Below, piece after piece: positions 42,531 through 52,886 of a stretch of DNA of 64,000 nucleotides. The notes beneath the pieces were generated by a model that saw only the letters and a program-made list of their open reading frames with translations, made no database searches and had not been told where the DNA came from. Made by a program: the position numbers and the translations under genes. The first letter of the stretch is position 1. Each line of letters begins with the position of its first letter. The stretch comes from Cyanobium sp. Cruz-8D1 (lineage in GTDB: Bacteria > Cyanobacteriota > Cyanobacteriia > PCC-6307 > Cyanobiaceae): contig NZ_JAGQCD010000001.1 in NCBI RefSeq assembly GCF_024345975.1, forward strand, positions 1-64,000. The letters are read 5' to 3'.

Positions 42531-44048
42531 TCAAGGGCAGGGGCGCAGGCCATGGCGCTCGGGCCGCACGGTGCTGGCGGAGGGAAGCAGGATGAAAGGT
42601 GCGGACCGCCAAGCCCCGGGTGCCTCCCAGCAGGCCAGGTCGGGGTTGGCGGCACGAAGGGCGGGAATGTCGTCGTGGGCAAGCTGAAAGCCCAGGAAGG
42701 CTCGTTCGAGCGGCTGGGCAACGTCCCGTAACTCTTCCGGCGCCTGCTGCAGTTGGCCGGGCCGGAAGTAGAGCGGGCTGAGGGCCTCCAGCAGCCAGCC
42801 CCGACTCCAGCAGCCCGCGTCGCAGATGCCGCTGCGCTCGACGAAGGTGGCCATCAGCTTGTAGTTCTGCAGGGGAGCACGTTTCTCGGCCAACTCCCGC
42901 TGGGCCAGCTGCCACTGCAGCAGCAGCCAGATCGCCAGCAGGCTGGCCAGGGCGAGCCGCCGCGCACGGCAGAATTGTTGAGCGAGCTCCCAGCCATTAC
43001 CGCAGAGGTAGGCCAGAGCCGGCAGCACGACGATGTAATACCTGGCCTGGGACAGAGGCTTGATCAGGTCGACGGGCAGCATCAAGGCCAGGAAGCCACC
43101 GATCGCCAGCAGCAGGAACCGGGCTTCCCCCAGTGCTGGGCTTGGCGGCACCGGTGCCAGCGGTTCCGGGCGTCGTCGCACCGCCGTGACGGCGAACACC
43201 AGGGCCATGGGCACCCCCAAGGCGACCAGCAGCAGCCCTTCCGGTCCGGCGCGGCCCGGAGCCAGCAGCGGCAGGGTGCCGCTCAGGAACTCGCTCAGAG
43301 TGCCGCTGATCGGCGTCACCTGGATCCAGTCGAGGCGCTCCAGCTTGTTCGAGAGCGAACTCGACAGCAGATGGGCCATGGGACAGGCCAACAGGCCCAG
43401 CAGCAGGGGCAGCACCTGCTGGCGTCGACGCCATACCAGGCCTTCGGCCCAGACCACGGCCAGCACCACCAGGACGAACAGCAGCGAGAAGTAGTGGGTG
43501 AGGGAGAGCAGCAGGCAGGCAAGGACGAACAGGCGCCGCAGGGCCGCGTCGCTCCAGCCGACCAGAAGACTGTTGCTGGAGCCGCCCAGGCGCCGGTGCC
43601 TCAGTTCCATGGCTGCTCCCAGCATCACGGCCGAGAGGGCCAGGGAGGTGGCGTAGCTGCGGGATTCCTGGGCGTAAAACAGAAACGCCGGGCTGGTGCC
43701 CAGGAAGGCCATACTCACCAGGCGCCGGCCTGCCCCCCGACCCGAGGCGAACAGCGCGGTGGCCACCAGGCTGATGCCGGCCATCAGCAGACTCAGGCTT
43801 CGAGTCGCTGCTTCCCCGCTGCCGCCGCTGCCGATCCAGAGCTTGAGCAGGCTCTGGTAGAGGGGCGGATGGGTGTCGGGAATCAGCCAGTGCCGCAGCA
43901 TCAACCCCCAGTCGGCCCGGCTGGCGGACACCGACCAGAGCTCATCCGACCAGTAGGAATAGTTTGTACCCAGGCCGCGGCTGGCGGCCAGAAGAAAAAA
44001 GAGGACCAGCACCGCACTGATGGCGAGCTGGATCCTCCGGTGATTCAT
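42531..44048 (-). CDS. GT39-like membrane glycosyltransferase
   Basis: 505 residues with about ten hydrophobic helices. The first loop contains YWSDELWSVSASRADWG, the DE pair typical of polyprenyl-phosphate-dependent GT-C enzymes, then PDTHPPLYQSLLKLWIG, another conserved feature. Further helices (SMAFLGTSPAFLFYAQESRS, VDLIKPLSQARYYIVVLPAL) and a soluble C-terminal part follow. Substrates unknown; probably acts on glycans or lipids outside the plasma membrane. It is placed between ftsH and argF. I recall these two being direct neighbours in picocyanobacteria, so this gene looks inserted. Confidence 0.83.
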   Translation of the reverse strand: MNHRRIQLAISAVLVLFFLLAASRGLGTNYSYWSDELWSVSASRADWGLMLRHWLIPDTHPPLYQSLLKLWIGSGGSGEAATRSLSLLMAGISLVATALFASGRGAGRRLVSMAFLGTSPAFLFYAQESRSYATSLALSAVMLGAAMELRHRRLGGSSNSLLVGWSDAALRRLFVLACLLLSLTHYFSLLFVLVVLAVVWAEGLVWRRRQQVLPLLLGLLACPMAHLLSSSLSNKLERLDWIQVTPISGTLSEFLSGTLPLLAPGRAGPEGLLLVALGVPMALVFAVTAVRRRPEPLAPVPPSPALGEARFLLLAIGGFLALMLPVDLIKPLSQARYYIVVLPALAYLCGNGWELAQQFCRARRLALASLLAIWLLLQWQLAQRELAEKRAPLQNYKLMATFVERSGICDAGCWSRGWLLEALSPLYFRPGQLQQAPEELRDVAQPLERAFLGFQLAHDDIPALRAANPDLACWEAPGAWRSAPFILLPSASTVRPERHGLRPCP

Positions 44049-47705: not shown

Positions 47706-47733
47706 GTCAGGAGGCGTGCCTGTTGTTCCTTGC

Positions 47734-48657
47734 TCAGGGAAGCGGCACGTTGCGGCACCAGGTCAGGAATCCCTGCACACCTTCTTCCAGCGGTATGGCA
47801 GAAACGAAGCCAAGAGATTGCAGTCTGCTGATATCGGCCCTCCAGTTGGAGGGATTACCCTGATCTTGGTTACCGTTGAATCGTGCGTTGGGCCCCTGCC
47901 CGAGGCAGGTGAGAAGCAGATTGGCGATTTGCCGGATGGAGACTTCCTTGCCTGAAGCAAGATTATACGCTTCGCCTCTGAATTCAGCACGTTCTGCGAG
48001 GATGCGGATGGCTATGGCAACATCTTTCGAGTGGATGAAATCTCGAGATTCATTGCCTGTTCCCATCAGTTGAAAGGGCTCATCTGAAATTGACTTTTTG
48101 TAGATATCCCAGATCACCTGACGACGTAAGCCCGGTCCATAGGCCGAGAATATTCGGGCAATGGCGGTTCTGATGCCATAGATTTTTGTATACTCATTGC
48201 AAAGTATCTCTGACTGCAACTTGTGAAAGCCGTAGGGAGACATCGGTTCGCATATCTGGGATTCGTTGATCGGCAGCACGCCGGCATTGCCATAAACCGC
48301 CGCACTGGAGAGCGTGATGAAGCGGCAGGAGGGAGCTTGAAGGCGAATCGCTTCCAATAGCTCAAAGACCATTACGGTGTTTGCGTAGTAGTCAAGCGCA
48401 GGGTTGGCGATCGATAGACCTACCGAAGCGCATCCAGCAGCATTGATCAGCACGTCTGGAGGAGATTCGTTCAACAGCGAGTTGAATTCAGCGCTCGGTA
48501 TGACCATTGTTTCATGGCGTGTCAGCCGACTGTTCGTCACCACCCTCTTGCCGAGGCGATCAACTCCTGTCACCAGGTAGCCTTGGCTTAGGAATTCATC
48601 GGCAATGTAGCCACCAAGAAAGCCCGAGACGCCGGTGATCAACACTGACTGTTGCAT
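47734..48657 (-). CDS. NAD-dependent epimerase/dehydratase family protein
   Basis: 307 residues of the extended short-chain dehydrogenase fold. NAD-binding motif GVSGFLGG at about 9-16, ITLSSAAVYGN with the catalytic serine, and YGFHK with the catalytic Tyr/Lys (about 146-150). IARIFSAYGPG and DFIHSKDVAIAI are further family signatures. It should modify a nucleotide sugar for surface polysaccharide synthesis. Its composition is clearly AT-richer than the flanking core genes; it shares this with the following gene on the same strand. No terminator to the convergent DUF427 gene (28-base gap) was seen. Confidence 0.87.
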   Translation of the reverse strand: MQQSVLITGVSGFLGGYIADEFLSQGYLVTGVDRLGKRVVTNSRLTRHETMVIPSAEFNSLLNESPPDVLINAAGCASVGLSIANPALDYYANTVMVFELLEAIRLQAPSCRFITLSSAAVYGNAGVLPINESQICEPMSPYGFHKLQSEILCNEYTKIYGIRTAIARIFSAYGPGLRRQVIWDIYKKSISDEPFQLMGTGNESRDFIHSKDVAIAIRILAERAEFRGEAYNLASGKEVSIRQIANLLLTCLGQGPNARFNGNQDQGNPSNWRADISRLQSLGFVSAIPLEEGVQGFLTWCRNVPLP

Positions 48658-48721
48658 TGCTGGAAGACGATCAGGGAGCTGGGTGAGAAAGTAGGGATCT
48701 GATCAGGGGTCTCGATTGCAA

Positions 48722-49846
48722 TCAGGAGTTTGCCTGTGCATCGACCTGCCTGAATCCGCGTTGCTGCATTTTTGTTTCTGATCGAGCTCTGTCTAGCCTG
48801 TAGATGAGAAAAGCTTGTATCCTGCACAACTGTGCATAGGCAGATCCGTGGATGCCGTCAGATAGGACAGTACCGTAAATTGCCTTGCAGAGGAAATTCC
48901 TCAGTCTGTCGTTGGCGATGGTGTGCACTCTTCTGTTAGTAATATCCTGGATCGTTTCTGCCATCTCTGCCACCCGGAAGAAGGCGAGGGTGGTGGCCGG
49001 TGTCCAGTCATCAGGCTTGATGATCATCTTGCTGGCAATCAGCGACTTCCTATGCTCATCTCTATATTTTATACAATAGCCGCGATCAGCAGAGTAGGAG
49101 CCTGTGCTCCAGCTTGTTCGTCCATCGATGGATCTTACTGTAAACATCGTGTAGGGAAATCTTCTGACCCTCTGTTCTAGGCCGAGTTCGCAGAAGGCGA
49201 ATCGTATATATTTTTCGAGATTCCACTCTTTCCGCCCGCTCATCTTATTTCGCAGCTCTTCGGGGCTGCACAGAATTGGATCGGTAACCGAAAGGATTGA
49301 GGCCAAGTCCTTTCGACTCACCACGATATGTCGATCGGTAAAGCCGCCGTAATCTTCTCCTTCGGGAATCCATATCATCTCTGGATCTAGTTGCCGAACC
49401 GGGAAGTGGGGAGTCAGGTAGATATAGTCAGAGCGAGTGATGATGAAGCGATCATACTTTTGGTCGGCACCACTATTTTTGAGCGATTGCTTGAGCAGCC
49501 ATCTGAAGAAGAGAAGAATTGAGCCTGAGCCTCTCGTTCTGCCGTTTGCGTTGTGAACTCCCCCCATCCAGATGCCATCCAAGTCGAGCAAGCAGCGCCA
49601 GTCTCCTTGGCATCCCTCCACGATCTGTGCCGCGTCGAAGGCGCTGCCCCAGTCGTCAGGCTCCTCATAGGTCCAGATGTATCGGGCGTGCTGGTAAAAG
49701 GGATTGCTCGTGTCTTCCCACTGATTTTTGGCTATGCAGAGAGCGAGATCTGCATTCAGAGCTTCCAGCACATTGGCTCGAAAGGACGGGAAAGAGTATT
49801 CATGGGCTCTTGTCTCCGCAATGACAACGACCAATGTACTTTCCAT
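48722..49846 (-). CDS. Unrecognised protein, possibly polysaccharide-related
   Basis: 374 residues without a family I can name. Conserved-looking stretches are WRCLLDLDGIWMGG, KYDRFIITRSDYIYLTPHFP, IWIPEGEDYGGFTDRHIVVS, and WNLEKYIRFAFCELGL. Acidic pairs and the RSDY..., D-R-H pattern recall GT-A-type sugar-handling proteins, but this is weak. No signal peptide or membrane helix. GC is very low for this genome (38% in one 60-base line counted). It lies 64 bases upstream of the epimerase on the same strand and opposite in composition to the core genes around, so likely transferred with it. Confidence 0.7.
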   Translation of the reverse strand: MESTLVVVIAETRAHEYSFPSFRANVLEALNADLALCIAKNQWEDTSNPFYQHARYIWTYEEPDDWGSAFDAAQIVEGCQGDWRCLLDLDGIWMGGVHNANGRTRGSGSILLFFRWLLKQSLKNSGADQKYDRFIITRSDYIYLTPHFPVRQLDPEMIWIPEGEDYGGFTDRHIVVSRKDLASILSVTDPILCSPEELRNKMSGRKEWNLEKYIRFAFCELGLEQRVRRFPYTMFTVRSIDGRTSWSTGSYSADRGYCIKYRDEHRKSLIASKMIIKPDDWTPATTLAFFRVAEMAETIQDITNRRVHTIANDRLRNFLCKAIYGTVLSDGIHGSAYAQLCRIQAFLIYRLDRARSETKMQQRGFRQVDAQANS

Positions 49847-50180
49847 CTAGGGTAAGGAGAGTGTGATTTTTCTACTATAGCATTGGAGATTCATAAGTTT
49901 GCAGGCAATGGCAATTTCGACCTTGCTCTAAAGCCATTGGCGTCAGCTCTCTGCAGCTTGCGAGTAATGATGATGGCTGGATGTTGCGCAGAGCCCCGAC
50001 GCACGGCAACTGCGGTCCACGAAGCCCGAGGAGACGCCCTCCCCCAGTTCATGCACCTCTTTGCTGGGTTGCTGCCCAGATCGGCCATCAACATGTCCTT
50101 ACAACGGTGCAGGGCGCACTGACGCCGCGAACGATTGCCCCGATGGGTAGATATGCCGGTTCATCAGCAGGGAGGGGGCT
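49847..50180. other. Gene-free stretch in the polysaccharide patch
   Basis: 334 bases between the unrecognised gene and the GT61 gene, both on minus. The first 130 bases are AT-rich (GATTTTTCTACTATAGCATT near 49866), fitting a promoter region for the unrecognised gene. The rest returns to higher GC. Several short open frames exist on both strands but none resembles a known protein. Confidence 0.5.
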
Positions 50181-51218
50181 TCAGAGTGTGACGTCCAGAT
50201 AGTTGTGGAGCACCTGGGGAGCGACTCGGATGTGACGCTCAGTGTCATGGGATTCACATGTTCCATGGTAATATTCGAGGCCATTGATCATGGCTAGCTG
50301 AAAATAATCGGGTCGCACTCCATGCCCTTCCTGGAAGAGCTCCAGGAGGCTCCCTTGTCGCGAGTGAAGCAGGTTAGTGAGGCTGGCTCCATGGGGCGCC
50401 ACGATGTGAGTGGCGCCGCGGAAAAGGGCGATCTGCTCGGCCACCGAGAGCTTCTCGGTCTGCACCGCCACGAAGCCGTGGGGAGCGAGAATCTCCATCA
50501 CCTCCTTTTCGTTGGTCACCTGGCGGGAGGGAACGCCGCGTCGGGAGAGGTAGATCCGCTGCGGGCCGGCTCCTTCACTGGCCGGAAGGGATCTTGAGAA
50601 CCGGTCGCGAAGCTGCCCGATTGCCCAGGGCGAGGTGGCATCGAAGGGGGCTTGCCCCAAGCGTTGCCAGCGATGGGCCACATAGGCGATCAGCCGATGG
50701 ACTGCAAGGCCCCCGCGTCCCACGGGCCGGTGGGGTATGAACCGGTCCCTGTCGATCCCCAGCAGGGCCAGCGATTCCGCTTGCCAATGGTTGAGTCGGG
50801 ACGGCACGATCAGCCGAGGGATCTCGCCAGTTCGTTGAGCGTGGTCGTCCGCGGCGATCAGTCTGGGCAGACAGTCGAGAAACCAGTGGAAGTAACTGCC
50901 GGTCCACTGGCGAGCGTCGACCAGGGAGCACACGGTGGCGTGGATCCGTTCCTGCGCCGGCAGCATGGACCGAAGCCGGATAGCGTGCCGCTGCCTGGGC
51001 TCCATCTCCTTGAGGTGGAGAGTCTCCTCCACGATGAGGCGATTTCTGCCCACACCCACCAGGTTGTCTGTGACCAGGCGGGTGTTCTCCTGAACGACAT
51101 AGCTCTGCGGGTCGAGAAGGATCGGCTGGAGGTAATCGGCGATGCGGCCGAGGGGCTGACCCCAGGGGTTGGCTATGCGGTAGTGGCAGCGCTCGCGTCC
51201 GTGGAGTTCGATGTGCAT
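50181..51218 (-). CDS. Glycosyltransferase family 61 protein
   Basis: 345 residues from ATG 51218 (MHIELHGRERC). The GT61/DUF563 features are visible: GSYFHWFLDCLPRLI (about 123-137), PQRIYLSRRGVPSRQVTNEK, and HIVAPHGASLTNLLHSRQGS near the C-terminus. No signal peptide, so acts in the cytosol on an unknown sugar acceptor, probably in the same polysaccharide pathway as the epimerase 1.5 kb downstream. It is followed on the same strand by the low-GC gene and preceded by ribD only seven bases upstream. Confidence 0.87.
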   Translation of the reverse strand: MHIELHGRERCHYRIANPWGQPLGRIADYLQPILLDPQSYVVQENTRLVTDNLVGVGRNRLIVEETLHLKEMEPRQRHAIRLRSMLPAQERIHATVCSLVDARQWTGSYFHWFLDCLPRLIAADDHAQRTGEIPRLIVPSRLNHWQAESLALLGIDRDRFIPHRPVGRGGLAVHRLIAYVAHRWQRLGQAPFDATSPWAIGQLRDRFSRSLPASEGAGPQRIYLSRRGVPSRQVTNEKEVMEILAPHGFVAVQTEKLSVAEQIALFRGATHIVAPHGASLTNLLHSRQGSLLELFQEGHGVRPDYFQLAMINGLEYYHGTCESHDTERHIRVAPQVLHNYLDVTL

Positions 51219-51225
51219 GGGGTTT

Positions 51226-52359
51226 TCAGGTGGTGCACGCGGCTGCTTCCGCCCCAGCCTTGGCCGGTGGCTGCGGGGCCACGAGCTGCCACAGCATGTC
51301 GTGGCCGAGTCGCCGGATCTGGCCATGCCCCCAGGGCTCGGCTGCATCGATGGTCACAAGGCCCAAGTCCCCCAGTGGCGTCTGTGCCGGCCGGCCTCCC
51401 AACAGCTTCGGGGCGATCACGGCGGCCACTTTCTGCACGCAGCCCTGCCGCAGGGCCGCCGCCGCCAGCTCGGGGCCGCACTCCCACAACACCTGGTTGC
51501 AGCCGCGCTTAGCAAGGGCCTCGTGCAGCTGCTGCGGTTCACAGGCAGAGAGCTCCAGCCGCTCCACCCCCAGCGCATCGATTTGCCCACGGGCCGCCGC
51601 CGGTGCTTCCGGGCCATGGGCCACCAGGGTGGGTGCTGCAGCCGGATCCCACAGCCGGGCCTGCTCCGGCAGATCCAGGCCCCGGCTCAGCACCACCCGC
51701 AAGGGTTCGGGATCGCGTTGCCCCCGGCTTGTGAGCAGGGGATCATCGGCGCGCACCGTGCCACCCCCCACGATCACGGCATCGCATCGCGCCCGCAGCC
51801 GGTGCACCCAGTCCCGGGCCTCCGGGCCACTGATCCACTGGCTGACGCCATTGGGCAGGGCCGTACGCCCATCCAGGCTCATGGCCCATTTGAGGATTCC
51901 CAGGGGGCGGCCCGTGGCGACCCGATGCAGGAAGGCCCGGTTGAGCCGGCGCGCCTCGGCTTCCATCACCCCTTCGATCACCTCCAGGCCCGCCGCCCGC
52001 AGCCGGGCGATGCCGCCACCGGACACCAGGGGATGGGGATCGGCCATGGCCAGCACCACCCGGGCGATGCCGGCGGCGAGCACGGCCTCGCTGCAGGGGG
52101 GTGTTCGGCCGTGATGACAGCAGGGCTCCAGGGTCACGACCAGAGTGCCGCCCCGGGCCCGCTCGCCGGCCTGGGCCAGGGCCCCCACCTCCGCATGGGG
52201 GCCTCCGGCGCGGGCATGGAACCCTTCCCCCACCAGCTGGCCGCCGGTATCGAGCACCACGGCACCCACCAGGGGATTGGGGCTCGTGCGGCCCTCGGCG
52301 AGGGCGGCCAGTTGCAGGGCCCTGGCCATCCAGGGGTGCCAGGGCGAGGCGCTGCTCAC
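51226..52359 (-). CDS. ribD: Bifunctional riboflavin biosynthesis deaminase/reductase RibD
   Basis: 377 residues from GTG 52359 (GTGA overlap with the DUF3122 stop). Deaminase domain: SPNPLVGAVV, zinc ligands in HAEV and PCCHHGRTPPC. Reductase domain: RPLGILKWAMSLDGRTAL, SGPEARDWVHRLRARCDAVI, GGGTVRADDPLL. It performs two consecutive steps from the GTP cyclohydrolase II product toward riboflavin. ribF lies about 10 kb away on the other strand, not in an operon. A GT61 gene follows seven bases downstream. Confidence 0.92.
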   Translation of the reverse strand: MSSASPWHPWMARALQLAALAEGRTSPNPLVGAVVLDTGGQLVGEGFHARAGGPHAEVGALAQAGERARGGTLVVTLEPCCHHGRTPPCSEAVLAAGIARVVLAMADPHPLVSGGGIARLRAAGLEVIEGVMEAEARRLNRAFLHRVATGRPLGILKWAMSLDGRTALPNGVSQWISGPEARDWVHRLRARCDAVIVGGGTVRADDPLLTSRGQRDPEPLRVVLSRGLDLPEQARLWDPAAAPTLVAHGPEAPAAARGQIDALGVERLELSACEPQQLHEALAKRGCNQVLWECGPELAAAALRQGCVQKVAAVIAPKLLGGRPAQTPLGDLGLVTIDAAEPWGHGQIRRLGHDMLWQLVAPQPPAKAGAEAAACTT

Positions 52360-52886
52360 GCGGCCGGCGCGTCCGGGAGGCTGCGCCACTCCGCCACCAC
52401 GTAGGGCGGCACCGCCAGCTCGCTGAACACCCGTGGCAGCCGCAACCGCAGGGGACGGTTCTGCTCCAGATCGGCCAGCAGCGGCGCCAGATCGAACTCG
52501 GCCGCCGCGGAACGGGTGTCGCCGGCCAGGGCGGGGTTGCCGAGGGTCACATCCTCCAGGGCCCAGAGCAGACGGCCGCTGCGCACCTCCAGGGCGGTGG
52601 GATGGTCGAGGCGCACCTTGCCGGGGTAGCCCACAATCCTCAGCCGCAGCGGGCCGCCGGGCGGACCCTCCCGGTAGGCCACCACCTGCCAGCTCTGGTC
52701 GTCGAGATCGCGCAGGCTCTCCAGGCTGCGGACCACCGGCGTGCCGTTGCCATCGGGGTGGGCATGCAGCAGCGCCAGGGCCGGCGCCGGGGCCAGTACC
52801 AGCAGGCTACCCAGGATCAGACCCAGGAACCCCGCCAGCCGCCAGCGGCGGCGGCTCGCTTCCACCAACCAGCCGGCTGCGCTCAT
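52356..52886 (-). CDS. DUF3122 domain-containing protein
   Basis: 176 residues, start ATG 52886 overlapping the GH116 stop (ATGA). N-terminal signal peptide or anchor at about 17-40 (LAGFLGLILGSLLVLAPAPALA). The remainder is the cyanobacterial DUF3122 domain: LRDLDDQSWQVVAYREGPP, LRLRIVGYPGKVRLDHPTAL, and LPRVFSELAVPPYVVAEW at the end. Probably periplasmic or luminal; function unknown. Tightly coupled on both sides (GH116 upstream, ribD downstream). Confidence 0.83.
   Translation of the reverse strand: MSAAGWLVEASRRRWRLAGFLGLILGSLLVLAPAPALALLHAHPDGNGTPVVRSLESLRDLDDQSWQVVAYREGPPGGPLRLRIVGYPGKVRLDHPTALEVRSGRLLWALEDVTLGNPALAGDTRSAAAEFDLAPLLADLEQNRPLRLRLPRVFSELAVPPYVVAEWRSLPDAPAA

Follow-up and report, generated by a model that had tools for sequence, protein, structure and literature searches.

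The 64,000-nucleotide stretch of Cyanobium sp. Cruz-8D1 contig NZ_JAGQCD010000001.1 considered here (the window) carries, at positions 48722-49846, an open reading frame (ORF) for a 374-residue protein, and the question it raises is what such a protein does next to genes for sugar enzymes. The original prediction had read it as a glycosyltransferase or sugar-transfer enzyme of a new family, resembling GT-A enzymes while matching no family. We consider it likely that the window protein transfers sugar from a nucleotide-sugar donor, as a glycosyltransferase of GT-A fold that serves surface-glycan synthesis and has a degenerate DxD motif, because two fold predictions and recurring glycan-gene neighbours point the same way.

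The predicted ORF is indeed there: it starts with ATG, fills the interval exactly and lies on the minus strand (read from 49846 to 48722), which the original prediction had left unstated, and the plus strand has stops in the translated frame. Homologues occur in Cyanobium sp. FGCU52 (locus L015; 62% identity across residues 1-348 of the window protein), in acidobacterial and Rhizobiales metagenome-assembled genomes (52% and 48% in the best segments, the latter cut by a contig end), in two Trichodesmium genomes (L019 and L021; 32%), in Acidimicrobiia (30%), and in Planktothrix (L003) and Elainella (L018) at 28-30%, Elainella at 28%. A single scan of genome contigs gave seven of these loci and a Planktothrix plasmid added the eighth (the contig of L015 is also the source of L002, and the L018 protein is the L004 protein). 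Since such homologues exist in other genomes, this is a real gene, and together with the ORF layout they rule out a chance ORF or the wrong strand.

Predicted fold and relation to DUF7796

The check that the original prediction had proposed, structure prediction followed by a fold search, yielded two models with GT-A glycosyltransferases (GT6, GT13) foremost among their matches, in keeping with the resemblance first suspected. The AlphaFold2 model of the window protein reached a predicted local distance difference test score (pLDDT) of 72.8 and a predicted template modelling score (pTM) of 0.72 (five models, mean pLDDT 72.8 to 64.3), and that of the Elainella homologue a pLDDT of 78.8 and a pTM of 0.84 (five models, 78.8, 78.0, 60.4, 55.0 and 54.6); both show, by eye, a GT-A-like succession of strands and helices. 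VIA-align 2 matched the window model to the GT6 structure 4cj8_D (Z 11.2, root-mean-square deviation (rmsd) 3.0, 183 residues aligned) and the GT13 structure 1foa (Z 11.1, rmsd 3.9, 210 aligned), and the Elainella model to the GT13 structure 1fo8 (Z 12.0, rmsd 3.5, 194 aligned) and the bacterial GT6 structure 4ayl (Z 11.4, rmsd 3.2, 178 aligned), where the family numbers are those we presume from the enzyme names. According to the tool, models without a clear match typically reach Z scores of 7-8, as against 10-12 for these GT6 and GT13 matches. All of the best 50 matches listed for the window model are glycosyltransferases, and those for the Elainella model are glycosyltransferases or lysyl hydroxylase 3, the latter in structure entries that contain uridine diphosphate (UDP)-sugars. 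Foldseek agreed, with best E values of 2.1e-5 (window) and 1.2e-5 (Elainella). A Rossmann-like GT-A fold is thus well supported by the models, and is shared with both GT6 (bacterial BoGT6a, ABO transferases; Z up to 11.4) and GT13 (GnT I, POMGnT1; Z up to 12.0), whereas identity in the structural alignments is only 3-10% and 6-8%, respectively, with no credible PDB sequence match to either family.

Nucleotidyltransferases and other Rossmann folds resemble GT-A, and a nucleoside triphosphate (NTP)-transferase-like protein is encoded near the homologue in L018 and L019. That protein is a separate gene, however, and the structural matches listed for both models are the glycosyltransferases and lysyl hydroxylase 3 just named, so that a GT-A-like nucleotidyltransferase or other Rossmann-type enzyme appears very improbable.

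At the sequence level, the sole Pfam family found at E <=1 was DUF7796 (PF25072), with no sign of GT6 or GT13 membership; its score of 17.3 bits (E 0.0024) is below the gathering cut-off of 27 bits, and no NCBIfam family was matched. When five homologues were scanned (L015, L017, L018, L019 and L020, leaving out L016, L021 and L003), two passed the DUF7796 cut-off (L018 with 28.8 and L019 with 35.4 bits), two scored just below it (L017 with 24.8 and L020 with 23.8 bits) and L015 had no match. A single hhalign comparison of alignment A2 with two DUF7796 proteins above the cut-off (L005 and L007, 54.4 and 54.6 bits, from G015 in the window's genus and G391 in its family) gave a probability of 94.4% and an E of 8.6e-8, with the motifs in register. 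Considering the sub-cut-off score, the homologues that pass and the hhalign link, the window group is, on sequence comparison, a divergent sister of DUF7796. The two share detectable homology and identical R-x-D, P, G-x-x-D-R and E positions, whereas a W-[IM]-P-x-G-E-x-Y-x-G-x-x-D-R-H loop is peculiar to the window group. The claim that no known family is matched is therefore half right: it holds as far as the cut-off goes and fails in that there is a sister family, itself of unknown function.

DUF7796 was matched at E <=0.1 in 8 of 60 genomes (own included), one of them over the cut-off, and at E <=0.001 in 4 of 386 genomes of the phylum, two over it. None of 14 control genomes matched; at E <=10 only Lactococcus lactis did, below the cut-off. 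A second place in the own genome (E 0.96) was treated as chance.

Candidate active site

An alignment of eight window-family members with the two DUF7796 proteins (L021 was left out as near-identical to L019) has ten invariant positions, namely R13, W83, R138, D140, P161, G168, D171, R172, E211 and W246, the last in nine of nine sequences, the tenth being cut, and the others in all ten. The seven sequences of A2 further share G163, E164, Y166 and H173. By topology, the R-x-D would stand where GT-A enzymes carry DxD, and E211, at the start of a predicted helix, would be the counterpart of xED on the F-helix. As for the segments that the original prediction had quoted as motifs, ITRSDYIYL and PEGEDYGGFTDRH do contain invariant residues, but the acidic residues of LLDLDGIWMGG are not conserved; the one invariant residue nearby is W83, which precedes D88 by five positions. 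LLDLDG was rejected as a DxD motif, D88 and D90 varying among homologues.

The relevant sections of PMC9364030 name DxD and xED as core motifs of GT-A enzymes and describe the xED Asp as often Gln or Glu in retaining ones. In the parts of PMC7185993 that deal with such losses, GT14 and prokaryotic GT6 enzymes lack DxD and need no metal, yet are active, and GT14 uses basic side chains. Lack of DxD is a point of likeness to prokaryotic GT6; the R-x-D of the window group may be a similar solution, or Asp140 alone may hold a metal. We propose a binding site for the nucleoside diphosphate (NDP)-sugar along the C-terminal edge of the sheet, made up of Arg13, Arg138-x-Asp140 and Asp171-Arg172; Asp140 would hold metal or ribose, the arginines would offset the diphosphate, and Glu211 would lie at the xED position.

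A retaining mechanism is weakly favoured, because Glu at xED is commoner in retaining enzymes. An inverting transferase like those of GT13, in which either Glu211 or Asp171 would serve as the base and Asp140 would bind a metal, is a possibility to be taken seriously, if not the one we would expect: GT13 matches tie with or lead GT6 matches in VIA-align 2, and GT14 uses a glutamate base (PMC7185993, in its treatment of that family), while Foldseek ranked GT6 entries first for both models, which is not decisive.

Neighbouring glycan genes and the weight of the evidence

The window gene is the middle one of a same-strand run, with a GT61 glycosyltransferase gene upstream and an SDR gene downstream (Table 1).

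Table 1. Features at the locus; positions are those of the window.
Feature	Position	Strand	Remarks
Window protein gene	48722..49846	-	374 residues; GT-A fold by prediction; divergent sister of DUF7796
Codon of Arg13	49808..49810	-	10/10 invariant; follows strand 5-9, presumed nucleotide-binding end of sheet
Codon of Trp83	49598..49600	-	10/10 invariant
Arg138-Ser139-Asp140 (R-x-D)	49427..49435	-	R138 and D140 10/10 invariant; end of strand 133-137
P161-x-G-E-x-Y-x-G-x-x-D171-R172-H173 loop	49328..49366	-	before strand 173-177; P161, G168, D171 and R172 10/10
Codon of Glu211	49214..49216	-	10/10 invariant; start of helix 210-220; putative xED-like position
Upstream GT61 glycosyltransferase	50181..51347	-	PF04577, E 5.7e-24
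Downstream extended SDR, NDP-sugar epimerase/dehydratase type	47734..48657	-	PF01370, E 8.5e-47
Low-GC slot	47706..50180		GC: window gene 0.508, SDR 0.526, window 0.683; vacant in relative G010

Nine loci with a window-family gene were compared (the window, L015, L016, L017, L018, L019, L021, L003 and L020). The epimerase neighbour that the original prediction had pointed to is real, with an SDR adjacent in four of them, and GT61 is the commoner neighbour, lying within 4 kb in six (the window, L015, L018, L003, L021 and L020). In L015 both were assigned by blastp, the GT61 from its 62.7% identity to that of the window. The upstream GT61 is the sole PF04577 match at E <=1e-5 in its 3.97-Mb genome; G000, G036 and G668 have one GT61 match each, G666 has seven and G667 five, and only one of the 14 control genomes (Caulobacter vibrioides) has any. 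Pairwise identity among the GT61s of L003, L018 and L021 is 62-73%. The SDR-bearing loci form two subgroups from about two lineages, the window with L015 and L016 with L017; because the SDRs beside L016 and L017 (46% identical to each other) share only 24-26% identity with that of the window and are not its close orthologues, the pairing recurs with different SDRs. In this genome, the window protein would transfer a sugar onto a polysaccharide or glycolipid of the cell surface and act jointly with the GT61 enzyme, with the SDR making or modifying the donor sugar.

In G015, a GT61 is found 3.4 kb away from the DUF7796 gene proper, which clusters with family 2 and group 1 glycosyltransferases and a methyltransferase; the contig of the G391 gene has no GT61 match. 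In L018 and L003 an SIS-CBS (KpsF-like) gene stands next to the homologue.

A number of observations weigh against the glycosyltransferase reading. On the side of the models, both were built on one alignment of the same seven sequences, which makes them only partly independent; mean pLDDT drops to between 60.4 and 54.6 in three of the five Elainella models; confidence in the window model is low at 165-168 within the conserved loop (pLDDT under 50), at 240-255 and over much of the chain beyond residue 300; and the TM-scores that Foldseek gave, taken by query length, reach only modest values (0.26-0.35 among the best 50 matches listed for the window model). Sequence searches of the PDB gave no credible solved relative, a literature search found no paper naming DUF7796, and we know of no enzyme activity for any DUF7796-type member. 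The neighbourhood has its own weak points: no GT61 was seen in three of the nine loci (L016, which is a whole contig of 5,957 bases, and L017 and L019, cut by contig ends on one side), nor any match in G664 and G665, the genomes of two of these; the L020 GT61 is on the opposite strand; and the six GT61 neighbours come from about three lineages (two Cyanobium-type genomes, filamentous cyanobacteria and Acidimicrobiia). GT61 relatives are present in 20 of the 40 genomes searched, and the window gene and SDR were absent (tblastn, E <=1e-5) from all seven GT61 loci fetched outside G036 (G001, G023, G019, G010, G008, G013 and G015), so that GT61 does not need the window gene. Finally, no DxD follows strand 4, the first Asp being Arg in all ten sequences, and the DxD and xED equivalences are topological only.

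That Arg also leaves some room for a degenerate GT-A protein without catalysis that would assist the adjacent GT61, a frequent neighbour, as its scaffold, its chaperone or a sugar-binding subunit; COSMC in GT31, as PMC7185993 describes it in a passage on lost motifs, is a GT-A protein turned chaperone after the loss of both DxD and xED. On the other hand, all ten sequences keep Asp140, Asp171 and Glu211, as an active site would, even though identity to the window protein falls to ~20-30% in some; G664 and G665 carry the gene with no GT61 to serve, and GT14 and prokaryotic GT6 remain active after losing DxD (same passage). We regard a non-catalytic role as decidedly improbable.

The best reading of the models and alignments remains a new divergent member of the GT-A glycosyltransferases, sister to DUF7796 and of modest novelty. 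A bolder version would unite DUF7796 and this divergent branch in a glycosyltransferase family that CAZy does not yet contain, marked by R-x-D instead of DxD and by retaining transfer that needs no metal; members of this branch would act together with GT61 as a mobile module for sugar decoration that is exchanged between phyla. This version strikes us as unlikely.

As to other genes near the homologues, clusters occur at L003:4019-9961 (Planktothrix), L018:4629-9827 (Elainella), and L019:527-10159 and L021:952-12473 (Trichodesmium). Each of the following is encoded in at least one of the four: GT61, KpsF-like SIS-CBS, an NTP-transferase/APH fusion, a TylF methyltransferase, TauD and PhyH dioxygenases, a P450 and an ABC transporter; the clusters possibly make a glycosylated product. 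An ORF alike by eye to the SIS-CBS gene stands next to the homologue in L019 and L021. In the window, the GT61 ORF as listed runs into the ORF before it on the same strand (51226-52389); translation more probably begins at an internal ATG, at 51218, which matches the start of the G023 orthologue. The window ORF 42531-44048 (-) encodes a 505-residue hydrophobic protein, without a Pfam match at E <=0.01, that, by eye, resembles a GT-C membrane glycosyltransferase.

The low-GC slot and the distribution of homologues

In four genomes (the window's, FGCU52, G010 and G023) the slot of the window gene and SDR lies between GT61 and DUF427, and the genes further out match as well; among the genes around it are some that we take to be RibD, FtsH, SRAP, Nif11 and GBA2. 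GT61 (GC 0.638) and DUF427 (0.683) are close to or at the window value, and in FGCU52 the homologue (0.501) and SDR (0.499) are as low as here. The window and FGCU52 slots both hold the gene and the SDR, 62% and 60% identical, respectively, and that of FGCU52 also holds a Mutator-type transposase. In G010, DUF427 follows ~170 bases after GT61 with nothing between, and this GT61, matched in three frames, is probably broken or misassembled. The G023 slot contains other DNA with partial copies of DUF427-side genes; a 552-residue hydrophobic protein is encoded there (L059:8694-10352 (-)), with no Pfam match at E <=0.01. Because slot contents vary among these four genomes, the window gene and SDR behave as exchangeable cargo.

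The gene itself is rare. A first survey matched 2 of 60 genomes, that is, the own genome and one among 59 relatives. A class-wide search at E <=0.01 matched 4 of 388 (own included), among them G391, whose match is the DUF7796 protein, and G302, whose weak match (E 0.0066), within a locus with a long ORF that presumably encodes a photolyase, was treated as chance. The A2 profile matched 3 of 388 genomes (own included), and in the class of the rhizobial genome the only match among 337 was that genome itself. A second plasmid match, in Phocaeicola, had an E of 3 and was taken for chance. This rare and scattered occurrence suggests horizontal transfer of the window gene. A putative serine recombinase (by eye; L026:278-1945) is encoded on the contig that carries the second half of the Rhizobiales homologue, which fits a mobile gene.

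Phage cargo was considered and rejected. Among viral structure models the best match reached an E of 2.6e-15, a Sylvanvirus protein named DUF7796 matched at 1.5e-8, and the two best matches, the uncharacterised proteins A0A5J6VMD2 of a giant virus and M4R1G6 of Synechococcus phage S-SKS1, resemble the window protein in fold, but their identities are 20% and 13%. The window protein matched nothing in phage records (tblastn) or PHROGs, and three scans of viral contigs (queries A1, L019 and the DUF7796 pair A3) confirmed no relative.

For the family, these results give Pfam DUF7796 a probable function, that of a GT-A glycosyltransferase with a defined active-site signature. For Cyanobium, they point to a cyanobacterial glycan locus where sugar-adding genes are swapped in a fixed slot behind GT61.
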